Of a stretch of 64,000 nt of DNA, positions 478-41,018 are shown one piece after another. Source of the stretch: Cloacibacillus porcorum (GTDB lineage Bacteria > Synergistota > Synergistia > Synergistales > Synergistaceae); contig NZ_CP016757.1 in assembly GCF_001701045.1 (NCBI RefSeq), positions 2,568,219-2,632,218 on the forward strand, given 5' to 3'. The position numbers were made by a program, and so were the translations under genes. Each line of letters starts with the position of its first letter. The stretch's first letter is position 1. A model generated the notes under the pieces. It saw only the letters and a program-made list of their open reading frames with translations. It had not been told where the DNA came from and did no database searches.

Positions 478-672
478 TCATTTATCTTCTATCGAGACTT
501 CAACCTGCGCCATCTTTCCTTTGGCAAGGCTCTCGGGAATGAATACCTGCCCGCAGGAGGGACAGCGCATGACCTCGGTGTTGAAGGAATGGTCCAGGTA
601 GCTGAAGTAGGCCTTGTGCATCTCCAGCGCCACGTTGCATCTGCTACAGATCAAGTTTTTGTTTTCTTCCAT
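478..672 (-). CDS. Small double-CxxC redox/zinc protein, DVU_1557-like
   Basis: 64 residues with CSRC at 9-12 and CPSCG at 37-41, joined by an aromatic YFSYLDHSF segment, and ending in an acidic VEVSIEDK tail. The paired CxxC spacing predicts a rubredoxin-like metal site or zinc ribbon; the metal cannot be told from sequence. I recall small proteins of this shape as the DVU_1557 family redox proteins that accompany TrsS. Its ATG lies inside the last codons of the dicluster protein gene (29-base overlap) and its stop is just before the radical SAM start, so the three appear translationally coupled. Function unknown; an electron carrier for the neighbouring Fe-S proteins is a reasonable guess. 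Confidence 0.75.
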   Translation of the reverse strand: MEENKNLICSRCNVALEMHKAYFSYLDHSFNTEVMRCPSCGQVFIPESLAKGKMAQVEVSIEDK

Positions 673-3064
673 GCCACACCTCTTCCAGTTCTATCTTCAT
701 CCTGTGCGAGTAAGCGTTATATACACGATAGCCATCGCCCTCGGGATGATATTCAACCCAACAGGTCATGTGGCCGATCTCGTGATAGCCCGTAAAATGC
801 CCGTTCTTCGGATTGGACAGCTTCCTTCCCGTTTGTTCGCAGAAACTTATGACGGCGGCAAGGTCGTCTTCAAGGATCTTTTCCCTATGCAGCTTCGCTT
901 CCAACTCTTGAGAGATCAGCAAAGTGATGTCCTTCTCCGGCGGCATTTCTTCGTTAAGCAGCTCTTTCATGAGACTCTCCTTTACCAGCTCCCGATTGCG
1001 CCGCCTTTTACTATAGGTCGGCGGCCTCTTATCCCAGCCTCCGAGGCCTAGGATCAGATCAAGGATATGCAGCACCGGCTTCCCCGCTTCGGCGAATATA
1101 TCGCGGCAGTTAGTACAGTATACTACATAGGGTACTGGCTTTTCCGATATCCTCTTATCAATGAGCCATCTCGCATAAGGGGGATTGGCGATCGATATCT
1201 GCCCTCCCCAGGAACAGCATTTAGCCCTCTCTCCTTCGTATTCCAGCGGTTTTAGCAGATACCCTGCCTCCGTCAGCATCATCCTTACCCTTTGCCGTGT
1301 TTCGGGATAATTTCGCGCGGAGCAAGGATCAAAGAGAGAAATTTCACCGCCACCGGCAGCGGTCTTCACGCCCAGTTCATAAAGGACATCGCTCACCATC
1401 GTTCCCTTAATCTGTGGCAGCGCCTCCCGTATCATTTCGCGGCAGGTCGGACAGCCAAAGATGATATCCGGCATTCCCAGCTGCCGCCATTTTTCCTCTA
1501 TCTCACGACAAATGCCGTCGTATATATTATCGTCGCCCGACCATAGAGCCGGAGCGCCGCAACAGGTGACAAAGATTGCCGTATCGGGCAGATGTTTCCT
1601 TAAAAGCCGGTATGTCTCCGTCACATACCGCGGGTCTGAGGCTCCCATCTGGCAACCGGGGAAGAAAAGATAGCGGCAAACGCATCCGTCGGTTTGCCCC
1701 CTATGGAAATCTTTAATGTCCGCTGACGCGGACGGGGGGCGGCTCTCGCGGCAAACGCATCCGTCGGTTTGCCCCCTATAGAAATCTTTAATGTCCGCTG
1801 ACGCGGACGGGGGGCGGTTCTCGCGGCTGGATTCTTCTCCAGATGGAACATAGAAAAAGGAGGCTCTTTCAGATCGGGAAAATGCCATGTCGTTGAGCCA
1901 GAACTCATGAAAGGCCCACGGCATCGCGTTTTTTTCACGCATTGCGCGGTGGCTCTCTCGCATAAACTTTCCAACGTCAATCTGTTCCGGGCAGACTTTG
2001 CCGCAGAGACCGCATTGATTACAGGTGGAAATCAGTCTCGTCGCCACTGTGCCGTTGCCATCCAGCGTGCCGGGATTGACTGTGATATGCACCTCTTCTT
2101 CAATGAGCTTGGGGAATTTCTGGAAATAGGCCATCATATCACAGCTGCGGACACAAACATCGCAGCGGCATTTGAGACAGCGGGCCGCCTCCCTCCGCGC
2201 CTCGTCTTCCGTATAGCTGCCGTCAACAGAGGGAGACACGGGAACAACCACAGTGACATCTTTCAGCTCCAGCTTGATCTTGGTCGGTATGCGCGGCTCC
2301 GGCCCTTTCATGTTCCCCGTCTTGATATAGCCTTCGATCAACGACGCGGCCCGCAGGCCATGCGCGATGGCCTCCGCCGAAGAGACGCCCAAGATAGATC
2401 CACCGACGAACAGGCCCTCCGCTGCTGCCATCACGTCACCGGCCGCCGCTTCCTCCGACAGGTCAAACGATCCGCCGCCCTTACCGGTCGCCACATAGAC
2501 AGCGTCGTATTTTTTTCTTATATTTTCAAGGTCTCTTACCTCCGTGTTGAGGATAAGACTGTATTTTTCTTTAGAAAACTGTTCTTCTATATCTTTTAAA
2601 AAAATCTCCGGCGGCATTATATCCCATAAATGTCCTCCAATACGGCCTCCTTTTTCAAACACCGTGACCGCGTATTTCCTGTTCGAGAGCCGCAGTGCGC
2701 AGGCCAGGGCGCTGATACCGCCGCCCACTATGGCGATATTTCTATCTTTAGCGGGCATGTTATAACTATTGGGCTCCCTACGAACCATCCCGGCAACGAC
2801 AGCCCGCTCGATAAGTTTCAGATTGACAGCTCCATCTATGCCGCTTCGCGGGCAGTCCAGACGACATCTCTCGTCACAGATCTCCGCGACGATGCGCGGA
2901 AAGGCGACCGCATTGGCATAGAGCCGGTATGCCAGGTTAAAGGCCCCCCGCTCCACACGTGGAACAAACTCCCGTATATCGAGGCTAAAGGGACAGGCGG
3001 ATATACATGGAGCGGCCTCCTTTTCGAGACAGCAGTTCCTGATCCTGCTTTTCATTTCATCCAT
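644..3064 (-). CDS. Pyridine-nucleotide oxidoreductase / dicluster Fe-S protein with CCG domain
   Basis: About 806 residues. Order: N-terminal Cys-rich glutamate-synthase-small-subunit-like region (NCCLEKEAAPCISACP, CDERCRLDCP); FAD/NAD-binding fold starting IAIVGGGISALACALRL; two ferredoxin-type cluster motifs (CLKCRCDVCVRSC, CNQCGLCGKVCP); and a heterodisulfide-reductase-like cysteine-rich region (FFPGCQMG, CCGAPALW, GCPTC, CCSWGG, YCTNC). The tail holds a short extra domain. This suggests electron transfer between NAD(P)H or ferredoxin and a disulfide or Mo-enzyme partner; it matches proteins I recall as pyridine nucleotide-disulfide oxidoreductase/dicluster-binding. I chose the ATG at 3064 because GGAG sits seven bases upstream, overlapping the preceding gene's stop; an in-frame ATG at 3094 is possible. 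Odd: a 25-residue segment (RPPSASADIKDF..RGQTDGCVC) is duplicated in tandem between the ferredoxin and CCG parts. Confidence 0.85.
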   Translation of the reverse strand: MDEMKSRIRNCCLEKEAAPCISACPFSLDIREFVPRVERGAFNLAYRLYANAVAFPRIVAEICDERCRLDCPRSGIDGAVNLKLIERAVVAGMVRREPNSYNMPAKDRNIAIVGGGISALACALRLSNRKYAVTVFEKGGRIGGHLWDIMPPEIFLKDIEEQFSKEKYSLILNTEVRDLENIRKKYDAVYVATGKGGGSFDLSEEAAAGDVMAAAEGLFVGGSILGVSSAEAIAHGLRAASLIEGYIKTGNMKGPEPRIPTKIKLELKDVTVVVPVSPSVDGSYTEDEARREAARCLKCRCDVCVRSCDMMAYFQKFPKLIEEEVHITVNPGTLDGNGTVATRLISTCNQCGLCGKVCPEQIDVGKFMRESHRAMREKNAMPWAFHEFWLNDMAFSRSERASFFYVPSGEESSRENRPPSASADIKDFYRGQTDGCVCRESRPPSASADIKDFHRGQTDGCVCRYLFFPGCQMGASDPRYVTETYRLLRKHLPDTAIFVTCCGAPALWSGDDNIYDGICREIEEKWRQLGMPDIIFGCPTCREMIREALPQIKGTMVSDVLYELGVKTAAGGGEISLFDPCSARNYPETRQRVRMMLTEAGYLLKPLEYEGERAKCCSWGGQISIANPPYARWLIDKRISEKPVPYVVYCTNCRDIFAEAGKPVLHILDLILGLGGWDKRPPTYSKRRRNRELVKESLMKELLNEEMPPEKDITLLISQELEAKLHREKILEDDLAAVISFCEQTGRKLSNPKNGHFTGYHEIGHMTCWVEYHPEGDGYRVYNAYSHRMKIELEEVWHGRKQKLDL
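1674..1823. repeat. In-frame 75-bp tandem duplication, palindromic, inside a coding gene
   Basis: Copies at 1674-1748 and 1749-1823 differ at only two positions that I can see. Each unit holds two inverted repeats: GCAAAC/GTTTGC with a 10-base loop, and GTCCGC/GCGGAC with loop TGAC, plus flanking runs of C and G that can pair around the second stem. Seventy-five bases equal 25 codons, so the host frame is kept. It sits in a linker between Fe-S domains. The structure resembles protein-coding palindromic elements such as the Rickettsia RPE; no relation is claimed. Confidence 0.85.
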
Positions 3065-3068
3065 CAAA

Positions 3069-3479
3069 TCACTCCATTGGTTCCAGATAACCAAACTCCG
3101 TGAGCATTTCTTTTGCGCGGATATAGGTGGCTCTCATAATTTCAGGACATTTAACCGCCTTCTCATATGGGTCACAGCGTGTGATATCTACACAGTTGGC
3201 TGAGCCGTACTTTTCACAAAGCTCATGCTGAAACCAGTCCACCATCTCCTTCGTCATCTCTGTGTTTCTCTCGTCAAAGAGGGCGAGCATGCAGACTGCG
3301 CCTGTGAGCGCACCACAGGCAAGGCCACTGTGCATCCCATTGCAGAGAGCACGCGCAGCCTTAACGAATTGTTCATTATTTTCACCGCGCAGTCTCAAAC
3401 CAAGCTCTATTATTATGCTGGAACAGCAGAGACCTTCCACCTTCAACTGGTACATCAGTTTCAGCTCGTCTTCCATCAT
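3069..3479 (-). CDS. C-GCAxxG-C-C family protein, DVU_1555-like
   Basis: About 136 residues with GLCCSS near the N terminus and HSGLACGALTGAVCML in the middle, i.e. the C_GCAxxG_C_C pattern of a helical family thought to bind metal or redox cofactors, plus later cysteines (ELCEKYGSANC, CP). I recall a DVU_1555 family C-GCAxxG-C-C protein beside TrsS-type genes, which fits the neighbours. GTG 3485 opens the frame, but GAGG lies five bases before ATG 3479, so 3479 is my start. Its stop overlaps the region of the next gene's start, so the two are probably coupled. The true function is unknown; the conserved cysteines suggest a cluster or a thiol relay. Confidence 0.75.
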   Translation of the reverse strand: MMEDELKLMYQLKVEGLCCSSIIIELGLRLRGENNEQFVKAARALCNGMHSGLACGALTGAVCMLALFDERNTEMTKEMVDWFQHELCEKYGSANCVDITRCDPYEKAVKCPEIMRATYIRAKEMLTEFGYLEPME

Positions 3480-35902: not shown

Positions 35903-36520
35903 ATGATGAAGGAAGTATCAAACGAAAAGATAAGCAACCTTAGAGATATAATACTGGACCGCGCCGACAGCGAAAAAAAGATCAACATGGCGCAGGGCCG
36001 CCGCGAGGCGGACGATTGGCTCGCGCATGAGACGGAGAAACTCCAGCGAGAGACGAACCTCATCCTGCAGGATGCGCGCAAGCGCGCGGAAGATATCCGC
36101 CGCCGTCAGATACTCTCCGCGGAGCGTGAAAAATCGACGGAGACCCTGCGTCTGCAGAACAGGATACTTTCAGACTCTATGGGACGCCTTCAGGATAAGC
36201 TGGTGCACCTTAGAGACCGCGCAGACTATTCCGACATCCTGACCGGAATGTGCATTGACGCGGTAGAATCACTGGGGACGAAGACACCGCTTAAGCTGAG
36301 ACTCTCGGCGGTAGACCTTGCCCTTTCCGTGGAGGTCATCACGAAGACGCTCGCTCTCAACCATGAACTTGCCCTCACCTTTGACCCCGATCCGGCCCCG
36401 ATACTAGGCGGCTGCTGGGTAGCGACGGCTGACGGGCACAGGCAGGTCAATATGGATTGGCAGAGCATCACACAGGAGATGGCTGATTCTCTGGCTGAGC
36501 GCCTTCTGCCGCTGCTTTAA
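35903..36520 (+). CDS. atpE: V/A-type ATPase subunit E
   Basis: 205 residues: a long N-terminal charged coiled coil (to about residue 100), then a globular end, as in peripheral-stalk subunit E. ATG after AGAGGTG. A 136-base repeat-rich gap separates it from subunit A. Confidence 0.8.
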   Translation: MMKEVSNEKISNLRDIILDRADSEKKINMAQGRREADDWLAHETEKLQRETNLILQDARKRAEDIRRRQILSAEREKSTETLRLQNRILSDSMGRLQDKLVHLRDRADYSDILTGMCIDAVESLGTKTPLKLRLSAVDLALSVEVITKTLALNHELALTFDPDPAPILGGCWVATADGHRQVNMDWQSITQEMADSLAERLLPLL

Positions 36521-36650
36521 CCGCGGCGGACAGTCAGCGCGAAGCGCGAAATAAAAATTACCGCAGCCGCGGCGGACAGCAGCCGTAAAGCTGGGCATTA
36601 ATAATTACCGCAGGCCGCGAGGCTGCGGATGCGTTTACCGTAGGAGGGAA
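36521..36650. repeat. Degenerate 46-47-bp repeats between subunits E and A
   Basis: Two units start CCGCGGCGGACAG and end in ATTACCGCAG (36522-36567 and about 36568-36614); a third shorter one (GCCGCGAGGCTGCGG...TTACCG) follows. Inner arms such as CGCGAAGCGCG can fold. All lies in the untranslated gap and could be a processing or stability element. Confidence 0.55.
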
Positions 36651-36656
36651 TAGCCT

Positions 36657-38462
36657 TTGGAACTAAAAAATAACGCACAGAATTCCCATCTTGGGACCGT
36701 CGAATTCGTCAACGGCCCCGTCATAAAGGCAAACGGCATGCGCGACTTCGGAATGCGCGAAGTCGTGAAGGTCGGGCCCCATAAGCTGATGGGCGAAATA
36801 ATAAAGATGGATGGAGACAACGCCACCATCCAGGTCTACGAGGACACTGACGGACTGCGCATCTATGAGGATGTGACCGGCACAGGCGAACCCCTCTCCA
36901 TTGAGCTTGGACCTGGACTGATAGGCAGCTTCTTTGACGGAATCGGGCGTCCGCTGGACTCGCTGCTCGAAAAAGAGGGTATGTACATATCTCCGGGAAC
37001 CTCGGTAAACATGATCGACCGTGAACGCCTCTGGGACGTCACTCCCGTAGCCAAAGTCGGGGATCTCGTCTCCGGCGGCATGGTGCTTGCCACCATTCAG
37101 GAGACGCCGCTGCTCGTACATAAGGTGATGACGCCGCCGGACTTCGAGGGAGAGATCACTTGGATTATTCCCTCAGGAAAGCATCACGCCGGCAGCGATG
37201 TGGCAAAGGTAAAAGACGCCTTCGGACGTGAAGTGCCGATCCCGATGATTCAGCGCTGGCCTGTCCGTACGCCGCGCCCATACAGAGAGCGGCTTCTGCC
37301 CAACGAACCCTTCGTAACCGGACAGCGCGTCATAGACGGACTGTTTCCGCTCGCTAAGGGCGGCACCGCCTGTATTCCGGGAGGTTTTGGCACGGGAAAG
37401 ACCGTTACCCAGCACCAGCTCGCTAAATGGGGCGATGCGCAGGTCGTAATTTACATCGGCTGCGGAGAACGCGGCAACGAGATGACCGACGTTCTCGAAC
37501 AATTCCCGGTGCTTGAAGATCCGCGTTCCGGCCGTCCGCTGATGGAACGCACAATCCTGATCGCAAACACCTCGAACATGCCGGTTGCGGCGCGCGAGGC
37601 CTCCATATACACTGGCATAACGATCGCGGAATACTTCCGCGATATGGGCTACGACGTGGCGATCATGGCTGACTCGACCTCACGCTGGGCGGAGGCTCTG
37701 CGCGAGCTCTCCGGACGCCTTGAGGAAATCCCCGCGGAGGAGGGCTTCCCAGCCTACCTGCCAAGCCGCCTCGCCGAGTTCTATGAGCGCGCGGGACGTG
37801 TAGTCACGATTGGCGGAGAAAACGGCAGCGTCAGCGTCATCGGCGCAGTATCGCCTCCCGGCGGAGACTTCACGGAGCCGGTAACGCGCCATACAAAACG
37901 TTTCATCCGCTGCTTCTGGGGACTTGACAAAAACCTCGCGAACGCGCGCCACTACCCCGCCATTTCGTGGACGGACTCCTACAGCGAGTACGCCTCCGAG
38001 GTCGACGGCTGGTTCTGCACAAATGTGGACGCGCGCTGGGGCGAGCTCCGCGAAGAGGTACGCAACATCCTCGCGGAGGACAACAAGATACAGCAGGTCA
38101 TCAAGCTCGTCGGCGAGGACGTCCTCCCAGACGACCAGCGGCTCATCGCCTTCACGGCCTTCCTGATAAAGAACGGATATCTTCAGCAGAACTCCTTCGG
38201 TTCCGACTCGTACTCGCCGCCGATGAAGGGCTTTGAGATACTCTCCGTCATCCTTGAGTTCCACCACAAATCGATGGAGCTGGTCCGCAAAGACATCCCG
38301 ATCTCGCTGATAAAGGACGACGAGTCGGTCGACGCGATAACCCACCTCAGGGAACTCGCGGCCGAGGACAAAGAGGGCTTCGACCAGATTCGCAGACGTA
38401 TCGACGCGCACCTTGAGCGCGTCGCCGCGGAACGCACAAGAAAACTAAGGGGTGGTGAATAA
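36657..38462 (+). CDS. atpA: V/A-type ATPase catalytic subunit A
   Basis: 601 residues from TTG 36657 with GGAGGG upstream. Walker A GGFGTGKTVTQHQLAKW, then YIGCGERGNEM, Walker B-type VAIMADSTSRWAEALRE, and the non-homologous insert of A/V subunits near residues 120-200. Hydrolyses or makes ATP with subunit B. The stop overlaps the B ribosome site region. Confidence 0.95.
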   Translation: MELKNNAQNSHLGTVEFVNGPVIKANGMRDFGMREVVKVGPHKLMGEIIKMDGDNATIQVYEDTDGLRIYEDVTGTGEPLSIELGPGLIGSFFDGIGRPLDSLLEKEGMYISPGTSVNMIDRERLWDVTPVAKVGDLVSGGMVLATIQETPLLVHKVMTPPDFEGEITWIIPSGKHHAGSDVAKVKDAFGREVPIPMIQRWPVRTPRPYRERLLPNEPFVTGQRVIDGLFPLAKGGTACIPGGFGTGKTVTQHQLAKWGDAQVVIYIGCGERGNEMTDVLEQFPVLEDPRSGRPLMERTILIANTSNMPVAAREASIYTGITIAEYFRDMGYDVAIMADSTSRWAEALRELSGRLEEIPAEEGFPAYLPSRLAEFYERAGRVVTIGGENGSVSVIGAVSPPGGDFTEPVTRHTKRFIRCFWGLDKNLANARHYPAISWTDSYSEYASEVDGWFCTNVDARWGELREEVRNILAEDNKIQQVIKLVGEDVLPDDQRLIAFTAFLIKNGYLQQNSFGSDSYSPPMKGFEILSVILEFHHKSMELVRKDIPISLIKDDESVDAITHLRELAAEDKEGFDQIRRRIDAHLERVAAERTRKLRGGE

Positions 38463-38463
38463 A

Positions 38464-39843
38464 ATGGCGCAGCCCGAATACATAGGCGTAAAAGACATAG
38501 AGGGTCCCTTTATCCTCGTAGAAAATGTAAGCGGCGTCGGTTACGGCGAGCTTGTTGACATCCGCGACAGCAGGGGTGTGCGCCGCCACGGACAGGTAAA
38601 GTCGCTGAGTGAAAAGGCGACGCTCGTACAGGTCTTCACAGGGACGGAAGAGCTCGTACCGAACACGACAAAGGTTCGTTTCCTCGGCAAACCGCTTGAG
38701 GTCCACCTGTCAAAATACATGCTCGGACGCACCTTCAACGGTCTCGGCGAGCCGCGCGACGGCTGCGGCGAGATATATGGAGGCAGGCGCGTAAACATCA
38801 ACGGTCTGCCGCTGAACCCCATGGCGCGCCAGTACCCGCGCGACTTCATCCACACCGGTATCTCGGCGATCGACACGCTGACGACGCTGATTCGCGGACA
38901 GAAGCTGCCGATATTCTCCGGCAACGGTCTGCCGCACAACCAGCTCGCCGTACAGATAGCGACGCAGGCAAAAGTCGTGGGATCCGAAGAGTTCGCCGTC
39001 GTCTTCGCCGGAATCGGCGTCAAGCACGACGACGCGGCATACTTCATGCAGGAGCTGTCGACACGCGGCCACTCCAACAACATCGTCACCTTCCTGAACC
39101 TCGCCGACGACCCCGTAATCGAACGAATCGCTACGCCGCGCATGGCGCTTTCAACGGCGGAATACCTCGCCTACGAACTTGGAATGCACGTCCTCGTCAT
39201 CATGACTGACATGACAAGCTACTGCGAAGCGCTGCGCGAACTCGGCGTTGCCGCGGGAGAGGTACCGAGCCGCAAGGGATATCCTGCCTATCTATACAGC
39301 GACCTCGCCTCGCTCTACGAGCGCGCGGGAGTCGTCCGCGGACGTGAGGGAAGCGTCACACAGATACCGATCCTTACGATGCCCAACGACGACATCACGC
39401 ACCCGATTCCAGACCTTACGGGCTTCATCACCGAGGGACAGATAGTTCTTTCGCGTGAACTCGACGCAAAGAACATCTACCCGCCGATAGACATCCTCAC
39501 CAGCCTCTCGCGTCTGATGAAGGACGGCATCGGCAAAGGCTACACGCGCGAGGATCATCCGAGCGTCGCCAGCCAGCTCTTTGCCTCCTACAGCAGAGTG
39601 CAGGAGGTCCGCTCGCTCGCGGGAGTCGTCGGTGAAGACGAACTCTCAAAGACCGACAAATCATTCCTCGCCTTTGGCCGTATCTTTGAGGACCGCTTCC
39701 TCAAGCAGGGCAAAGAGGAGGACCGTGAGATCGGCTACTCGCTCGATATGGCCTGGGATATACTCGGAGAGCTGCCTACCGGAGAGCTGACGCGCGTCAG
39801 CCTCGCGGATATCAAAGAGCATATAAAGAAAAAAGAGCAGTAA
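38464..39843 (+). CDS. atpB: V/A-type ATPase subunit B
   Basis: 459 residues, the non-catalytic nucleotide-binding partner. SGNGLPHNQLAVQIATQA takes the place of Walker A, as is normal for B, with later DMTSYCEALRELG and GYPAYLYSDLASLYERAG. ATG 38464 with AGGGGTGG upstream is preferred to GTG codons at 38452/38455. Last gene of the operon. Confidence 0.95.
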   Translation: MAQPEYIGVKDIEGPFILVENVSGVGYGELVDIRDSRGVRRHGQVKSLSEKATLVQVFTGTEELVPNTTKVRFLGKPLEVHLSKYMLGRTFNGLGEPRDGCGEIYGGRRVNINGLPLNPMARQYPRDFIHTGISAIDTLTTLIRGQKLPIFSGNGLPHNQLAVQIATQAKVVGSEEFAVVFAGIGVKHDDAAYFMQELSTRGHSNNIVTFLNLADDPVIERIATPRMALSTAEYLAYELGMHVLVIMTDMTSYCEALRELGVAAGEVPSRKGYPAYLYSDLASLYERAGVVRGREGSVTQIPILTMPNDDITHPIPDLTGFITEGQIVLSRELDAKNIYPPIDILTSLSRLMKDGIGKGYTREDHPSVASQLFASYSRVQEVRSLAGVVGEDELSKTDKSFLAFGRIFEDRFLKQGKEEDREIGYSLDMAWDILGELPTGELTRVSLADIKEHIKKKEQ

Positions 39844-39868
39844 CGGCTTTGGCCTGCAGGAACATACC

Positions 39869-39898
39869 GCCCGCTGCGACAGACAGCGGGCATTTTTA
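39869..39898 (+). terminator. Terminator of the V-ATPase operon
   Basis: GCCCGCTG/CAGCGGGC with a 7-base loop followed by ATTTTTAT. Confidence 0.85.
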
Positions 39899-40001
39899 TA
39901 TGCCGGTTTATGTCAGCTTTTTATGATTTTATGTTGAGAGCGTTCGTTTTGTGATATAATCCTGAAATTATATTCATAATTCAGATTATGGAGGGACTGT
40001 A

Positions 40002-41018
40002 ATGATAAATAACATCGCACTGGCCGGCTGCGGCAACGTCGGAACCGCGCTCCTTGAGATACTGCATGAGAAAAAAAACGAACTTAAAGAAAAATACGGC
40101 TTTGAATATAAGGTCGTTCTCATCAGCGACCTCATGAAAGGCATCGTCATGGACCCGGAGGGGCTGGACCTAGAGAAGATCCTTAACGAACTCCACAGCA
40201 GGCACAGCTTCGGGGCGCTCGCGCAGGCGGCGGGCCATTTCGACGAACTGCTGGACCAGTCCGGCGCGACGGTGCTCGCAGAATGTACCCCTACCAACCT
40301 CAAGACGGGGGAGCCCGGCCTCTCCCATCTCAGAGCGGCGCTCTCGCGCGGCATCAGCGTCACCACGACGAACAAAGGGCCGATCGCGGTGGCCTTTGAC
40401 GAACTGTGCCAGCTTGCCGAGGAGTGCGGCGCAAAGCTCAGCTATGAGGGCGTGGTCATGAGCGGAACGCCGCTCATCGACATGATGAAAAACGGCATCG
40501 CGGGCTGCAGCGTGCTGGGCCTTGAGGGAATCCTCAACGGCACAACCAACTTCATCCTCACAAAGATGGGCGAAGGCGCCACCTACGCCGACGCGCTCGC
40601 CGAGGCGACGGCGCTCGGTTATGCGGAGGCCGACCCCTCAGGCGACGTCGAGGGCTGGGACGCGGCGGTAAAGGTCGTAATCCTCGCAAAGATCCTCTTT
40701 GGCAAGGAGATCGACGTGAAAGATGTCACCCGCATTGGGATCACGCAGGTGACGCCGCAGCAGATCGCAGAGGCGCGGCGCGGCGGCTTCACAATAAAGC
40801 TCGTAGCCGGCATCAGGTTTGACAGCTTTGGCATGCACCCCTACGTGATGCCGAAGGAGATCGCCGCGACCCATCCGCTGGCGGCGATAAACGGCGCGAC
40901 AAACGCCATCACGGTAAACACCGACAACCTCGGAGAGATCACACTGGTAGGCCCCGGCGCCGGACGCCGCGAAACCGGACAGGCGCTCCTCTCCGACATG
41001 ATAAGGATGAGCAGATAA
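40002..41018 (+). CDS. hom: Homoserine dehydrogenase
   Basis: 338 residues: NAD-binding start IALAGCGNVGTALLEIL, then TTNKGPIAVAFDEL, GILNGTTNFILTKM, and ADPSGDVEGWDAA with the catalytic Lys/Asp neighbourhood. It reduces aspartate semialdehyde to homoserine for Met/Thr synthesis. It is a short form without a C-terminal ACT domain, so feedback control by threonine via ACT is not expected. GGAGGG precedes the ATG; a TATAAT at about 39953 with TTGAGA 15 bases upstream is a likely promoter. Monocistronic with its own terminator. Confidence 0.93.
   Translation: MINNIALAGCGNVGTALLEILHEKKNELKEKYGFEYKVVLISDLMKGIVMDPEGLDLEKILNELHSRHSFGALAQAAGHFDELLDQSGATVLAECTPTNLKTGEPGLSHLRAALSRGISVTTTNKGPIAVAFDELCQLAEECGAKLSYEGVVMSGTPLIDMMKNGIAGCSVLGLEGILNGTTNFILTKMGEGATYADALAEATALGYAEADPSGDVEGWDAAVKVVILAKILFGKEIDVKDVTRIGITQVTPQQIAEARRGGFTIKLVAGIRFDSFGMHPYVMPKEIAATHPLAAINGATNAITVNTDNLGEITLVGPGAGRRETGQALLSDMIRMSR

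Follow-up and report, generated by a model that had tools for sequence, protein, structure and literature searches.

A probable mobile palindromic element, duplicated in frame in an Fe-S protein gene and dispersed within one family of Synergistota

Introduction

Rickettsia is the best-known source of selfish palindromes lying in frame, which are often attributed there to genome reduction and weak selection.

According to accounts of the Rickettsia palindromic elements (RPEs; RPE-1 to RPE-10; Ogata et al. 2000, 2002; PMC10969869, PMC3767692, PMC2229807), these palindromes reside in frame in many unrelated genes at exposed or linker positions, occur between genes as well, comprise several subfamilies, and encode no enzyme. 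Wolbachia and Methanocaldococcus jannaschii harbour protein-coding palindromic repeats, cited in PMC2229807 as repetitive and potentially coding. PARCELs (DUF285 palindromic amphipathic repeat coding elements) are tandem units of 25 residues encoded by palindromic DNA (PMC2996958). REPs are short structured repeats found in many phyla, some of them intragenic, inside palindromes or in clusters, and Synergistota is absent from the phyla reported for REPs and RAYTs (PMC3733652).

Here we describe an element found in a 64-kb stretch of the genome of Cloacibacillus porcorum (the window). It resembles RPEs as a dispersed palindromic repeat lying in frame in unrelated genes, a likeness of behaviour and description. 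On the other hand, the unit of 75-84 bp is smaller than RPEs (about 100-150 bp), probably differs from them in sequence, and was found in one family of another phylum, Synergistota; its host is not a genome-reduced intracellular bacterium. Tandem in-frame amplification, covarying helices and a fixed site in a MITE further separate the element from RPEs. The repeats of Wolbachia and M. jannaschii are alike as palindromes with coding potential, by description only. Tandem 25-residue units encoded by palindromic DNA are shared with PARCELs, but the latter use one frame, encode a defined protein motif and occur in ORFs of unknown function, whereas the Synergistota element occurs in housekeeping genes in three frames. 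Neither DUF285 nor the amphipathic 25-residue motif matched the host proteins.

The first-pass annotation of this DNA knew of no such element in Synergistota, and our search of the open-access literature likewise found no description for Synergistota or Cloacibacillus. Its analogy to Rickettsia is good at the level of behaviour. By analogy, the element appears to work like an RPE or an intragenic REP. The same behaviour in Synergistota with 3.5-Mb genomes suggests that this may be a more general way of adding short linkers to proteins. The family is spread between and inside genes of gut Synergistota, and what appear as 'domain repeats' of 25 or 26 residues in this group may be inserted DNA.

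Two copies of the unit in an Fe-S protein gene

A palindromic unit duplicated in frame had been annotated at positions 1674-1823. The duplicated unit is real, whereas the coordinates were one base off, the actual span being 1673-1822 (Table 1). The two copies lie head to tail, differ at 2 positions and, as had been claimed, keep the reading frame. Each copy encodes 25 residues, so that the Fe-S protein gains 50 residues from both, in the linker between the Fer4_17 domain (4Fe-4S; residues 305-373) and the CCG cysteine-rich domain (residues 475-556). The 'extra CVC cysteines' highlighted previously are indeed encoded (as GCVCR) but carry no special meaning, being the conserved loop of the element in one particular frame. 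AlphaFold2 modelled the host protein, from an alignment of 3 sequences only, with a pLDDT of 31, a model uninformative as to the insert.

Table 1. Features of the element and its host gene in the window.
Feature	Coordinates	Strand	Remarks
Host gene, 816-aa Fe-S/flavin oxidoreductase ORF	644..3094	(-)	Fer4_20, NAD-binding, Fer4_17 and CCG domains
Element copy 1 (gene order)	1748..1822	(-)	75 bp; structural match reaches 1828; R3 83.9 bits
Copy 1, P2 outer stem	1815-1810/1776-1771	(-)	
Copy 1, P3 inner hairpin	1808-1803/1798-1793	(-)	
Copy 1, linker	1792-1777	(-)	
Copy 1, P4 hairpin	1764-1761/1751-1748	(-)	Loop ATGCGTTTG at 1760-1752; A.C mismatch at the outermost pair of P4
Element copy 2, tandem duplicate	1673..1747	(-)	75 bp; 97% identical; R3 75.9 bits
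Family member, intergenic	36559..36641	(+)	57.9 bits; E = 1.3e-10

In each copy, the inner hairpin GTCCGC-GTCA-GCGGAC is nested in the outer GCCCCC/GGGGGC stem and accompanied by a 3' hairpin. The fold energy of a single copy against shuffles was weak and not significant (z = -1.2). We regard the stem-loops, already noticed in the first-pass annotation, as proven by covariation across 31 family members (see below).

Three Fe-S orthologues were found to lack the insert. In two of them, which belong to two other genera of the same family (L115 and L117; 68-75% identity), the alignment runs uninterrupted through the insertion point, and a public Synergistaceae record (L146) is also empty and reads as L115 there. 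No full orthologue of the Fe-S gene was found in the congener (G001), and the insertion can thus be dated only as after the split from the genera of L115 and L117. Tandem units are 97-100% identical inside one locus (the Fe-S, NudC and patatin genes) as opposed to approximately 77% between loci, implying that the second copy in the window arose in place, after insertion. Judged from these identities, the two-copy state is a later local tandem duplication, through slippage or unequal exchange; the slippage product offered earlier as an alternative to a mobile element thus holds for this second stage. Local tandem duplications recur in the NudC, LivG, MurJ and patatin genes.

A family of structured repeats

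Searching the whole genome and related genomes for the unit, as had been proposed, recovered further copies both in genes and between them. BLASTN detected a second copy in the window's genome (78%), in frame in a nitrogenase-like (NifE-type) gene in another reading frame, as well as copies in the congener. A covariance model built from 8 copies was then used to search the genomes and retrieved approximately 20 to 33 copies per genome in the window's genome and the congener, its own members included; weak matches among them may be chance. The congener is the genome richest in copies. The carriers amount to about 9-10 genomes, all of one Synergistota family (121 and 188 genomes searched; 9 of 188 across the phylum). 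A search of 84,980 species genomes, which may not include those of the carriers themselves and their near relatives, gave no exact match to a 22-base pattern from the 3' box. No match was obtained for a 24-base pattern in viral contigs or, by BLASTN, for an element array in phages or plasmids.

The unit is 75-84 nt long, has no ORF of its own, and comprises a nested stem (P2), an inner hairpin (P3), an A/T-rich linker and a 3' hairpin (P4) with the constant loop ATGCGTYTR. Its ends are fixed, with about GCGCGCC or ATTGCAA at the 5' side and CCGC closing a hairpin at the 3' side. In the alignment of approximately 31 copies from the window's genome and one congener, the pairing of P2 and P3 is kept at 95.8%, and both sides have changed in 11 of the 12 P2/P3 pairs (53 double-change cells). 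The observed covariation values of P2/P3 were reached in none of 500 shuffles and collapsed when the pairing was slid by 1-3 columns. P4 covaries too. No clear support emerged for a further helix, P1, outside P2.

The intergenic copy in the window (Table 1) lies between an ORF (35903-36520), putatively V-ATPase E-like by position, and the gene of V-type ATPase subunit A (36657-38462). The congener also possesses an intergenic copy before the subunit A gene (L062), suggesting that this insertion is older than that in the Fe-S gene. Separately, an intergenic array beside a response-regulator gene is common to G001 and G020 (L061:1239-1473 and L112:2712-2859), in which the canonical unit adjoins a variant whose 3' hairpin is different (GGCGGCTAGTGCCGA).

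In-frame copies in unrelated genes

Copies lie in frame in approximately 14 unrelated genes, such as those of a NifE-like protein, MurG, Fe-only hydrogenase, NudC, a chloride channel and MurJ, each copy adding approximately 25 amino acids with the reading frame intact. Sister genomes provided empty orthologues for 8 genes (the Fe-S, NifE-like, NudC, Fe-only hydrogenase, MurG, ClC, NusG-domain-II and oligopeptidase F [PepF] genes). A patatin lipoprotein carries 3 units directly after the signal peptide and LivG 2 units at the C-terminus, and the relatives of both have none or a degenerate remnant. The N-terminal extension of MurJ is an element array, of which the unit number varies between genera (L058, L113, L114, L148 and L152): approximately 3.5 in G001, 4 in G009, 1 plus a partial unit in G043, a remnant in G000 (the window's genome), and none in G020. 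Similar-looking copies were seen in a small ORF (L067) as well as at the termini of ThrB and MraZ.

The in-gene copies occur in both orientations and use 3 of the 6 frames. Eleven of the 14 loci are antisense in one frame (AADASAGLPPEE...), two are sense in a second, and one is sense in a third, a bias with P from about 2e-4 (four frames usable) to 4e-6. The favoured antisense frame is rich in Ala, Ser, Gly, Pro and Glu, and the peptides predicted from the DNA include DIKDFYRGQTDGCVCR and AADASAGLPPEEVLTVR. That the element might be constructed to keep every frame open was rejected, as the in-gene copies have 3.9 open frames against 3.8 in dinucleotide shuffles. Since the element is not unusually stop-free, the bias fits a filter for harmless peptides, and selection is its probable cause. 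The periods of the coding arrays (75, 78 and 81) are divisible by 3, unlike the periods of 76 and 55 in the two intergenic arrays for which a clear period was obtained. The gene insertion sites display no clear consensus. The host proteins are predicted to contain the translated units.

Insertions in MITEs and the exact ends of the element

A 14-base terminal inverted repeat (TIR), TAAATCGGCGTTTA, matched exactly 55 times in the window's genome and 92 times in the congener (0 matches for the reversed control), and is often paired, bounding a palindromic MITE of 128/129 bp. This MITE family is abundant genome-wide in both genomes (e.g., L158-L177), with several subtypes and covarying arms; no member lies within the window itself. 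'Long' MITE copies contain the structured element. Where a filled and an empty MITE match at 128 of 129 or 127 of 128 other positions, the difference is a clean insert of 84 or 83 bp, and four more pairs gave inserts of 81-83 bp. The insert position is constant, at the base of an internal hairpin, and the junction ambiguity is at most 1 nt, indicating insertion without target duplication. No consistent target-site duplication was seen at the gene junctions. As the filled/empty pairs fix the element ends to the base, mobilisation is directly testable.

The MITE insert begins immediately ahead of P2 and ends with the final base of P4, and the clean insertions in the ClC and NifE genes have the same limits. 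At the Hyd, NusG-II and NudC junctions, an additional 9-21 nt of the unit is found on one side, suggesting that secondary duplication or homology-assisted insertion also occurs. The constant position in the MITE could stem from a single old insertion with subsequent precise loss or exchange between MITEs. The element is similar to MITEs in being small, non-autonomous, dispersed, and both intergenic and intragenic. Nevertheless, we do not count it among them: the ends of the insert are not inverted repeats of each other, no target-site duplication was found, and the element is itself inserted in a true MITE.

Nature and mobility of the element

We take the 75-bp unit to be a copy of a mobile element that is structured and non-autonomous and occurs in one Synergistota family, with a probability of roughly 0.88. 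Its sites occur both occupied and empty with precise ends, which is the pattern of a non-autonomous mobile element, and the empty orthologues and the copies in other genes and frames bear out the earlier suggestion of a mobile palindrome that tolerates coding sequence. From presence and absence at these sites, active transposition is probable.

The best of the alternatives, albeit an improbable one, is that GC-rich hairpins undergo local slippage or recombination with no dedicated mobility, dispersal being achieved through gene conversion or template switching between repeats. Such a process would explain the tandem arrays with partial extra units and the gene targets that already resemble the first bases of the unit (e.g., NusG-II), but not the same-ended 81-84-bp inserts in MITEs, nor the single clean inserts in the ClC, NifE and MurG genes, of which the empty sites have no similar sequence.

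It is somewhat less probable that the element is of the REP type and mobilised by a RAYT (IS200/IS605-like Y1 transposase). REPs are also short structured repeats that occur in palindromes and genes without target duplication (PMC3733652), and the window's genome has one Y1 transposase (RAYT-type, PF01797), not seen beside element copies. However, most copies are in the congener, where no Y1 transposase was found. The MITE-defined ends start with ATTGC or ACCGC and finish with CCGC; no GTAG or CGTC tag is present at the ends, and CGTC appears only within the P4 loop. Three covarying helices make an architecture larger than a REP hairpin of 20-40 bp, and the copies are arranged head to tail, unlike the head-head pairs of REPs. 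In both the tag and the RAYT, the element departs from the REPs (GTAG/CGTC).

A structured regulatory or non-coding RNA element, with the in-gene copies as by-products, is unlikely. The strongly covarying structure would suit an RNA, and G.T pairs exceed A.C pairs on the element strand (20 vs 6), an excess that the search model favours. On the other hand, neither orientation relative to the host gene is exclusive (11 antisense vs 3 sense), the sites mostly differ between species, and no Rfam family scored above the gathering score. An ordinary domain repeat, that is, duplication of a functional 25-residue segment ancestral in the Fe-S protein, would agree with tandem, in-frame copies in a linker, but we regard it as refuted by the orthologues at 68-75% identity entirely lacking the segment, the reading of the same DNA in different frames or from the opposite strand by unrelated genes, and the copies between genes and in MITEs. 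The pattern named beforehand as the mark of such a repeat, a segment present in all orthologues and without other genomic copies, was not observed.

Returning to the mobile element, we propose that it would insert without target-site duplication between genes, into genes, and at one position in the 128-bp MITE palindrome. Insertions in genes would survive only if the length is a multiple of 3, the frame harmless, and the position a linker or terminus. A unit in a gene can then duplicate in tandem by slippage or unequal exchange, as happened in the Fe-S gene. Mobilisation would probably be in trans, through a single-stranded or structure-recognising step. More tentatively, and with considerable doubt, the element might represent a new class of protein-compatible mobile elements, which would move as folded ssDNA or RNA/cDNA, rely on an enzyme that is no relative of the RAYTs to make blunt insertions into genes and the bases of hairpins with no duplication of the target, and repeatedly lengthen protein linkers by in-frame tandem amplification. 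Both genomes, G000 and G001, have reverse transcriptases, which are not tied to the element, and an RNA route may be considered.

Two minor observations concern genes near the MITEs. In G001, an ORF of 597 aa for a DDE transposase (PF01609), which we take to be IS1634-like, is flanked by two 100%-identical 189-bp stretches of filled MITE (L101:1407-3942; G001:C1 about 37906-40441), as if its insertion had generated an unusually long target duplication. Several reverse transcriptase genes lie within approximately 1-2 kb of MITE TIRs (G001:C1:1289589-1293471, 1662474-1664008, 2347904-2350427 and 451523-453032), a proximity that would fit targeting of the MITE palindromes by group II introns.
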